This document shows, piece after piece, positions 9,792 through 12,700 of a DNA stretch of 64,000 nt. The notes under the pieces are model-generated. The model was not told the origin of the DNA. It saw nothing but the letters and a program-made list of their open reading frames with translations, and searched no databases. A program made the translations under genes and the position numbers. The first letter of the stretch is position 1. Each line of letters starts with the position of its first letter. This DNA comes from Hypomesus transpacificus (lineage: Eukaryota > Chordata > Actinopteri > Osmeriformes > Osmeridae), in the NCBI RefSeq assembly GCF_021917145.1, contig NC_061081.1, positions 8,408,769 through 8,472,768 of the forward strand, read 5' to 3'.

Positions 9792-12700
9792 TCAGAGTTT
9801 CTGAAGGCCTCCTTGTGGTGGCCGGTCAGAGGCAGAATCCTTCTTCTTCTTGAACAGATTTTTCAGTTTGGACGTCTTCTTACTCTTCTCCTTGTCCTTA
9901 GGCTTCTCCCCCCTCCCTGAGGGTTGAGGGTTGTGAGGGGTGGCAGCCACACCTAGTGCTCTCAGGTCTTCCTCTCCTGCTTTCAGGCTGTCGGTCAACA
10001 TTGGTGCCGTGGCAGTAAGCTCATCTGCGCCGGTTGGGGTTGTAGTGGTTGGCGTGGAAACGCATTTCTCCAGGATCCCGTCATATACAAGCCGGCTCAA
10101 AGGTTCGGAGGGTGTATTCCATGATGACACAGAGTTTAAGGTAAGGTCAGGCTGTGCCATCCGCCCAGGCGAGGAGCCGGACTCCTGAACCACAAACTCC
10201 TCCCTTGATATCCTCCGTTTGGGCATTTCCAGGACAACGTCCACCCTGTCCCTGGAGATCTTCCCAGGAGACGTGTCTACAGAGATGTCAATCATGTCTC
10301 TGGGAATCCTCCTCCGACTGAGGGTTGCAGGCATGTCAAGTTCATCTCTAGAGATCTTCCTAGCAGCAGAGGAGTCCATAGAGAAGTCTGGCATCTCTCT
10401 GGACAACAAACGAGAAGACGTGTCTATGAGAATTTCCATCTTGTCCCTTGGAGGCATTTTCCTTGAAAGTGATTCAGTTGAGAACTCAAGTTCCTCCCTG
10501 GAAGTCTTTCTAACCGGGATGCTGATTGGGTCCACCATTTTTTCCTTGGCCATTACTCTCATGGAAGAATCTGAAGACCCATCTTTGTCCCTTATTAACT
10601 TCCTAAAACCTGTGTCCATGGACACCCCCATAGATTCTCTGGAAATCCTTCTGAAGGTGCCATTCAATAAACACTCCTCCTGCTGCAACCAGCTGTCCAT
10701 GGATCCCCCCATGGACTCCCTTGAGAACTTCCTGCTCCCCATCTTGGTAGAAGATTCTCGTTCTTCTCTGAGCATCTTTCTGTTGGTGGAGTCCATAGAA
10801 ACCTCAAATGCATCTCTAAAGGTCTTCTTGGAAAGGATGTCTACGGAGGGCTCCCACTTGTCCTTGGACATCCTCAGTGAGGCTGTGTCTGCTGTGGCGT
10901 CCATCTTGTCTCTCTGCGTCTTTCCGACGGCGGCTCCAACCTCCTCTCTGGGGGACATGCAGATGGGAGGTTCCACTGAAGGTTCCGGTTCCTCTCTGGA
11001 GGTCTTCCTCACAGGGGCGTCATCAAACATATCTGCCTCGTCATGGTAGATCTTGCAAGGGGCGGAATCAACAGTGGCACTCGGGAAAATCCTGCCAACA
11101 GGGGGCAAAGTCATGAGGTTGGCATCTGTGAGCATTTCCTGAGGCTCTCTATAAAAAAAGAGGGATAGAAGACGGCCAGAGAGAAGGGAGGAGAGAGAGA
11201 GAAATAAAGGATCAAGAGAAACAAAGTAGTGGAAACCCAGGGTGAAAGACCGGGAAGGAGTGAAGAGAAAGAGATCAGATGTGAGAAAGAGAAAGAAGAA
11301 AAATTGAAAAATGAAGGAGAAAAAGAGAAAGTTAGACATTCCATTTCAGTGTAACACAACAGTGAGTATCCAATCAAACAATACAAGCCTAAGGACTGGA
11401 GTTACCAGCCAATGACGTACTGTCTCAGCTGACACCTTATCAGTTTAGTGGCCTCCTCCTCCTCCTCAAAGCAGGGGAGCGGGGCATGACTGGCCAGTAG
11501 TAGGTCAGGGTCGGAGGACATCATGGAGGAAGTCTGGGCAATGAGGCCAGGGCGACGAGACCGACACACAGTGGAGCCGAGGCTCCCAGGGGAGCGTTTG
11601 ATTGGAGGAACTGAAGTGGGGAGGGGTTAAGTCTCTCAATGGCAAAACATTTTTTCGCTTTATATTCATCAATTAAAGTGCGTGTCCAAATACTAAATTA
11701 TAATATGAACATGCCTCATCACCACCACCACCACCATCATCATCATCATCTGCAGCACAACAACCACTACCATCACCATCGTCCCCACCACCACCAGTTC
11801 CGTACCAGGTATCTGAGGTTGGATGGGTGAAGAGTCTTCCGGCAGGTCCTCCACAGAGCTATGGCAGGAGTAGTTCTGCACAGGCACCCGGGACATAACC
11901 AAGTTGGCATCGACATAGAGTGTAGCAGTGAGGCTGGCCAGGCCAGTGTTCCTTATGATGGTGAAGCCACACAGACGCTCGATGTGCTGCCAGCGGACCA
12001 GCCGTTCTCGAAGACAGGCCGTCACATCTGACAAGGAGTTCCTGAAGGGAGGACACAGCAAAAGGGTGTGAGTTATGTATGGGATTCATACACTCAATCT
12101 GACAGAAGACTGTGTGTGTGTGTGTTTGCTCATCTGTGTTTGTGCTCATGTTTGTGTCTCACTTAGCCTCCATTATCTTTTGGTCCACCTGGTCCAGACA
12201 GGAGCTGTGAGCAACATGAAGAGTCCCTAGAACTGAACTCCTCTTCTTTTTGATCTTTTCTGCCTGGACGGAGACACGCATGCAAATGTATTCTGAATAC
12301 AGACAGGACATCTATTCTACCATCCATCTGTCCATCCACATTTGTCTTTCCCCCCCTCCCTCCCTCCCTACCTCCCTTCCTCCCTACCTCCTCCTTAGCA
12401 ATGGCCAGCTGGAGCTCTGCTCTGTGCTTCTTGACATTGTAGTACTGGACCTCCACCTCATGGGTGAGCTGCAGCCACAGCTGTAGGGCCTCAGGAATTG
12501 TCCAACTGGCCAGCATGTCCTTCTCTGCCCTCTTCAATGCTCCCCGCACCTTGACACACACAAACATTGGCATTTTGGCACGCAAAACAGGGCTTTGTAA
12601 TTGGTTGAGACTCTGAATACATAGTTGAATCAAAAAAAATTTGAATAGAAGAGCCGACGAGCCAACTAAGTATGTGGCTACCGTTAAATGCAGAAAGAGA

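Follow-up and report, generated by a model that had tools for sequence, protein, structure and literature searches.

The last exon of stim2 in Hypomesus transpacificus carries, ahead of the polybasic end of the protein, a run of short segments that resemble one another. This raises the question of what was copied there, how long ago, and what the copies may do in the stretch of STIM2 that links SOAR to the polybasic end, a tail that matters for calcium entry. We took up the question in the 64,000-nucleotide stretch of contig NC_061081.1 that holds the gene (hereafter the window; positions are those of the window unless another contig is named).

A search against solved structures was used to identify the gene. 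The EF piece scored 43.2 bits against 2L5Y (STIM2) and 28.9 against 2K60 (STIM1), the EF2 piece 47.1 and 30.6, and the SAM piece 49.4 and 38.0; with 2L5Y ahead in 3/3 pieces, these scores identify the window gene as STIM2 and not STIM1. The parts of the gene needed here are:

9792..11148, minus strand: coding sequence of the final stim2 exon: 451 residues, one split-codon base and the stop (open reading frame, splice phase)
9840..9899, minus strand: C-terminal polybasic region, whose end aligns with the polybasic end of the paralogue (alignment, coordinates worked out)
11436..11611, minus strand: preceding exon, with an acidic run at its end (splice phase)
12388..12549, minus strand: SOAR exon of the same stim2 (Pfam SOAR, 3.7e-12)
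13510..13623, minus strand: SAM exon piece, nearer STIM2 than STIM1 (structure scores)
14594..14692, minus strand: EF-hand exon piece, nearer STIM2 than STIM1 (structure scores)

The splice junction is in phase (ATAAG/gtgtca at the preceding exon, tatag/A GAG CCT at the last exon), the last-exon frame runs uninterrupted to the polybasic end and a stop, and a scan with two strict patterns turned up no strong donor or acceptor inside this exon. The polybasic tail pairs with SKIKSLFKKKK of a second stim2 described below. The repeats lie past SOAR and before the polybasic end, where a first-pass annotation of the window had placed them. Beyond its KKKK run the protein continues for 15 residues (9795-9839, minus strand), whereas the paralogue stops at once.

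Upstream of stim2 lies rbpj, with RBPJ domain matches within 20368-22002 (Pfam); we take RBPJ to be a neighbour of STIM2 in human gene order too. Between two of the RBPJ-matching pieces sits a UnaL2 LINE 3' element (21125-21178, minus strand; RF00436, 64.9 bits), and a third RBPJ-like match, 68% identical and with one in-frame TGA in the stretch, was found on another contig (C9:4286719-4286829, L015). The window also holds a LINE-type retrotransposon frame of 595 residues (35311-37095, minus strand; RVT_1, 5.5e-34, Pfam) and a run of exon-like pieces (25700-31300, minus strand), two of which were given to Pfam and matched no family; by eye the run is reminiscent of HGSNAT, a tentative name.

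To delimit the repeats, we cut units where R, K or H precedes D or E, so that the anchor columns 0 (basic) and +1 (acidic) are fixed by construction. The resulting divisions are:

10176..11057, minus strand: the array, units 2 to 19, being 18 units of mostly 16 residues (anchor cutting, autocorrelation)
11058..11096, minus strand: unit 1, doubtful, strongly diverged and without the anchor (position only)
10653..10733, minus strand: unit 9, 27 residues, about 11 over the usual length (unit cutting)
10176..10217, minus strand: unit 19, the C-terminal-most, best of the 18 against the paralogue's single unit (tail alignment)

In 12 of 17 intervals the spacing between neighbouring anchors is 16 residues (the rest being 12, 15, 17, 17 and 27), and the units conform approximately to [RK][RK](hydrophobic/T)(S)R[DE]x(hydrophobic)[DE]xSx[DE][ST]. 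The core of the long unit 9 is closest to that of unit 10, with 10/13 residues identical. Leave-one-out scores were high for all units, yet they are partly circular because the units had been cut at R/K/H followed by D/E, and we relied instead on autocorrelation of the whole 451-residue exon, which involves no hand alignment. This gave z 7.8 at lag 16 and z 3.9 at lag 32, against a null of 2000 shuffles whose maximum over all lags has its 99.9% point at 4.1, and the peaks were unchanged under dipeptide-preserving shuffles. The hand-cut array gave z 8.0 and 5.5 at the same lags, and the last exon of the paralogue never rose above z 2.5. The segments are therefore more alike than chance allows, and the array proposed at 10186-11021 is real and slightly longer than first drawn; the degenerate units stand, while their number, put at about 16, becomes 18 anchored ones plus the doubtful unit 1. 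Outside the anchor, basic residues are retained at positions -4 (13 of 18 units) and -3 (14), hydrophobic ones at -2 (12) and +3 (13), acidic ones at +4 and +8 (12 each), and Ser or Thr in slots -1 (9) and +6 (11), with at least one slot filled in 14/18. Antisense to the array, a plus-strand frame stays open for 286 residues from stop to stop (10189-11049), probably as a by-product of repeated codons.

At the DNA level the copies are very degenerate, since Tandem Repeats Finder, even at score 30, reports nothing of period ~48 at the stim2 exon. Identity at lag 48, which is independent of the anchored unit alignment, was 0.43, 0.42 and 0.32 for codon positions 1, 2 and 3 (0.29, 0.26 and 0.26 when shuffled), and at lag 96 codon position 3 was near chance (0.28 vs 0.26). 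When the anchor codons are left out, comparison of unit with unit gave pS 0.69 and pN 0.51, a pN/pS of 0.735 (bootstrap 0.67-0.82) where shuffled codons gave 0.97, in an amino-acid-anchored alignment that favours replacement sites somewhat even so. Because of the lag-48 and lag-96 identities and this ratio, the unit duplications are judged to be old, with amino-acid identity held better than silent identity. Silent sites between units are incompletely randomised: aligned units show a position-3 identity of 0.37 vs 0.26, which 0/1000 random offsets reach, and units sharing an amino acid use the same codon in 277/530 cases (52%), against 44% expected. Elsewhere in the window, a 26-bp minisatellite (38286-38550, 10.2 copies, 95% matches, minus strand open in three frames) is a young array at the DNA level, unlike the old one in stim2.

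The origin of the units can be approached through a second stim2 in the same genome. A genome search with the SOAR exon found four STIM loci in the assembly, and the one on contig C25 is a second stim2: 9/10 non-terminal exon queries match in the fetched stretch, the EF exon being the exception, and human STIM2 outscores STIM1 for its SAM and EF2 pieces. Like the window stim2, this gene has rbpj upstream, an exon of which sits about 55 kb away and points the same way. Because of these shared exon matches, the STIM2 preference and the placement of rbpj, the two genes are probably sisters left by a whole-genome duplication, an assignment based on these features. The terminal exon of the sister is:

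contig C25, stretch L007, 6500-7069: last exon of the second stim2, 189 residues, with exactly one unit (tail alignment)

Its sole unit, QYRRISREEMLIYSQ, pairs in the tail alignment with unit 19 (BLOSUM 36; next best 29, unit 10). RRISREE, at residues 37-43 of the C25 exon, is identical in the two, and 4/7 of its codons differ, at silent sites only. The sisters also share exon layout, splice phase, a YxGILEK block and the polybasic end, and differ in having one motif versus 18. Counted from the first residue of the exon through the KKKK run, the window stim2 has 436 residues and the C25 copy 189, so that ~247 have been added relative to the paralogue rather than the ~200 first estimated. Since the sister has exactly one unit at the matching place, we conclude from the alignment that a motif single in one stim2 copy has been multiplied to ~18 units in the other, much as the first-pass annotation had supposed; the motif of the sister is a single one of RRISRE type. 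The position of unit 19 is the probable founder, with the array extending upstream of the single-unit place and including it. Neither unit 19 nor the C25 unit has the combination of Ser at +6 and an acidic residue at +8 that is common in the array, which suggests that the spread began with an altered copy located upstream of the founder position. With one paralogue as the basis, we infer a gain in the window copy and not a loss in the sister.

Searches beyond the two stim2 genes returned little. The whole exon, searched against the assembly at E up to 10, found its own locus only, an insensitive search because it also missed the one-unit paralogue. At both stim1 loci (C15 and C17; 20 kb each, six frames) there were 0 matches to [RK][RK][ILMVFT]SR[DE] in stretches that may not span the whole stim1 tails, and among viral contigs 18 stretches fit the peptide pattern and 0 encode a relative. 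Against human STIM2 the C25 copy scored 53.8 bits (SAM) and 50.3 (EF2), compared with 49.4 and 47.1 for the window copy. In zebrafish, stim2b is the copy nearer human STIM2 according to the accessible text of PMC7291033, and because the C25 copy is likewise slightly closer to human, it is only suggested that the window gene is the stim2a copy.

The unit can also be viewed in terms of its charge. Every unit would be basic at its head and acidic at its tail, which gives the chain a 16-residue charge wave, and charge autocorrelation alternates accordingly in sign (z -6.1 at lag 8, +7.3 at 16, -4.3 at 24 and +3.5 at 32). Hydrophobicity, the other of the two properties tested, had no 16-residue period by autocorrelation. 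Overall charge segregation is unexceptional (222/2000 shuffles reach the observed value), and the charge-decoration score was at least as negative in 438/500 shuffles. At E up to 10 the last exon matched no Pfam family and no solved structure. AlphaFold, run on the array as a single sequence, gave a model with a mean pLDDT of 45.2, which fits a disordered chain, a low value in this mode reflecting either disorder or mere lack of information. Hydrophobic residues at alternate positions, three in succession, occur 4 times against a shuffle mean of 3.0, so beta-strand-like alternation is not above chance.

The reading that we favour, at a probability of roughly 0.47, is that the array may form a disordered, multivalent, phospho-tunable regulatory linker between SOAR and the polybasic tail. 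The charge wave would provide many weak contacts, whether with partner tails, a docking protein or membrane lipid, and the Ser/Thr residues of the two slots would allow kinases to tune these contacts stepwise. What such a linker would be expected to change is how STIM2 pre-clusters at ER-plasma membrane junctions and how strong calcium entry is. One possible route would be a brake, which has been proposed to lie where the matching human exon begins.

Human STIM2.2 is the same gene and is built alike, with a preceding exon that carries an acidic run (human E5 at 587), a last exon that reaches the polybasic end, and a tail region with reported regulatory and putative phosphorylation sites (PMC13143212, accessible portion). 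In that portion, the matching exon starts after residue 587, truncation after 587 raises SOCE and truncation after 624 does not, and eight putative phosphorylation sites are claimed for 588-623. The same text reports that internal deletion of 588-623 lowered SOCE, and a simple brake is disfavoured for that reason. By straight count the RRISREE of the C25 copy falls at about human 624-630, just beyond 588-623, and scaling to the shorter human exon (159 vs 189 residues) brings it to the edge of that interval; the brake link to 588-623 is weak. Ser680, given as an AMPK site in the accessible part of PMC13143212, lies by number 93 residues into its exon, beyond the place of the fish motif. The human last exon differs from that of the window stim2 in length, 159 residues against ~452, and a full-text literature search for RKISRDE returned no match.

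If the array were instead a length spacer, the longer tether would by itself alter how far the polybasic end can extend towards the plasma membrane, and the sequence of the units would be incidental. The added residues ahead of that end and the low-confidence model of the array are as this idea would have them. A pure spacer is nevertheless disfavoured because the replacement sites of the units have outlasted the silent sites, and the charge pattern is in register all along the array. The earlier suggestion of a spacer thus keeps its added length and loses its indifference to sequence, and we regard it as unlikely.

A multi-site kinase switch in the strict sense would mean that selection acted on the array as a series of basophilic Ser sites. 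The form [RK][RK]x[ST] occurs 6 times in the array (shuffle mean 1.9; 16/2000 shuffles reach 6) and a PKC-like basic-x(x)-Ser-basic form 10 times (3.45; 1/2000), but any motif within a duplicated unit beats a shuffle. The core Ser slot, moreover, is kept in 9/18 units only, against 13/18 and 14/18 for the leading basic positions. RxxS is unenriched (8, reached by 573/2000 shuffles), as are CK2-type sites (9; shuffle mean 10.4), and the PKA form, in which a hydrophobic residue follows [RK][RK]x[ST], occurs 0 times. The residue after the core Ser is Arg in 8 cases and Lys in 1, partly set by the choice of anchor, and a basic residue there is ill-suited to PKA. S-x-[DE] is found 18 times against a shuffle mean of 7.8. 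Because the shuffle is unfair to a duplicated unit, and because 19 patterns were tried, we read these excesses as permitting kinase sites and as going no further. Strong binding of the PKA catalytic subunit by STIM2 has been reported, as cited second-hand in the accessible text of PMC7786003. The idea of a multiplied kinase site accordingly survives in its basic heads, kept in about three quarters of the units, and falters on the core Ser, lost in half; selection for the sites as such appears distinctly improbable. AMPK sites were rejected as candidates (full consensus 0 in the array; looser form 5, reached by 235/2000 shuffles). Among the 19 patterns, calcineurin PxIxIT (2, reached by 284/2000) and a SUMO-interacting pattern (3; shuffle mean 3.1) had no support, and B56 LxxIxE, 14-3-3, LC8, FFAT, kinesin light chain, WH2 and PxxP forms numbered 0 each.

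The array might also be an expansion without function, a coding minisatellite of some age that the disordered tail tolerates. Disordered tails do tolerate insertions, and the units are very degenerate, to the point of being invisible to a DNA repeat finder. Against this stand 451 codons free of stops and a pN below pS between old units, and we give the idea a low probability.

A further reading is that of a molecular ruler, with one STIM2 unit per filament repeat. A fully extended 16-residue unit spans ~5.5 nm, near the repeat along one F-actin strand, and the charge wave would supply one contact per filament subunit. Were this so, one fish stim2 would be tethered to actin of the cortex or the sarcomere and would keep ER-plasma membrane junctions ready-made, like mammalian STIM1L. 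STIM1L, a splice form of mammalian STIM1, is alike in having a long insert in its C-terminal tail (106 residues, actin-binding), and is set apart by description, as a splice insert not termed a repeat in the accessible text of PMC7795233. The zebrafish study PMC6471419, in its accessible part, found no STIM1L-like sequence and reports stim2a to be enriched in skeletal muscle. We consider a ruler very improbable.

It is just as hard to credit that the array serves for MAP kinase docking, each unit offering a basic pair, a spacer and hydrophobic-x-hydrophobic. A loose D-motif occurs 7 times (shuffle mean 1.9; 3/2000 shuffles reach it), as does an ELM-like pattern (2.4; 12/2000), and the tail of the paralogue has 1 match to each. 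These, however, are two of the 19 patterns, chosen after the units had been seen, the shuffle is no fair null for a duplicated unit, and the hydrophobic residues lack a 16-residue period.

The microtubule/EB-binding array of the first-pass annotation can be dismissed on canonical motifs, with hardly any probability left to it: the human matching exon has two potential EB motifs (SGIP 686-689 and SSIP 718-721, which like the polybasic end come after 588-623; PMC13143212, accessible text), whereas the 451-residue exon has no match to [ST]x[ILV]P, SRVP is the sole match in the two preceding exon pieces, and the loose form TLLP occurs 1 time in the last exon of the paralogue.

Degenerate tandem-repeat arrays in disordered regions form a general class with a short unit, drifted copies and phosphorylatable residues, and the stim2 array resembles them in these respects; to our knowledge none has been described in a STIM protein. 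It differs from the class in that the single-unit state is still visible in the sister gene. A repeat array in fish Stim2 was not named in the literature surveyed, which comprised titles and the beginnings of abstracts with few subscription journals, and the accessible parts of PMC4705965, PMC9113749 and PMC11506743 contain nothing on a Stim2 tail repeat.

A regulatory linker, possibly tuned by phosphorylation, thus remains our favoured reading, and the arrangement of the two genes offers a way into it. With a 1-unit and an 18-unit sister version of the tail side by side, the genome amounts to a natural experiment, one that allows the dose of a tail motif to be tested. The array likewise gives fish physiologists a concrete reason for possible differences between the stim2 copies, and such an array, rather than general divergence, may in part lie behind the percent identity measured between fish Stim2 copies and human STIM2.
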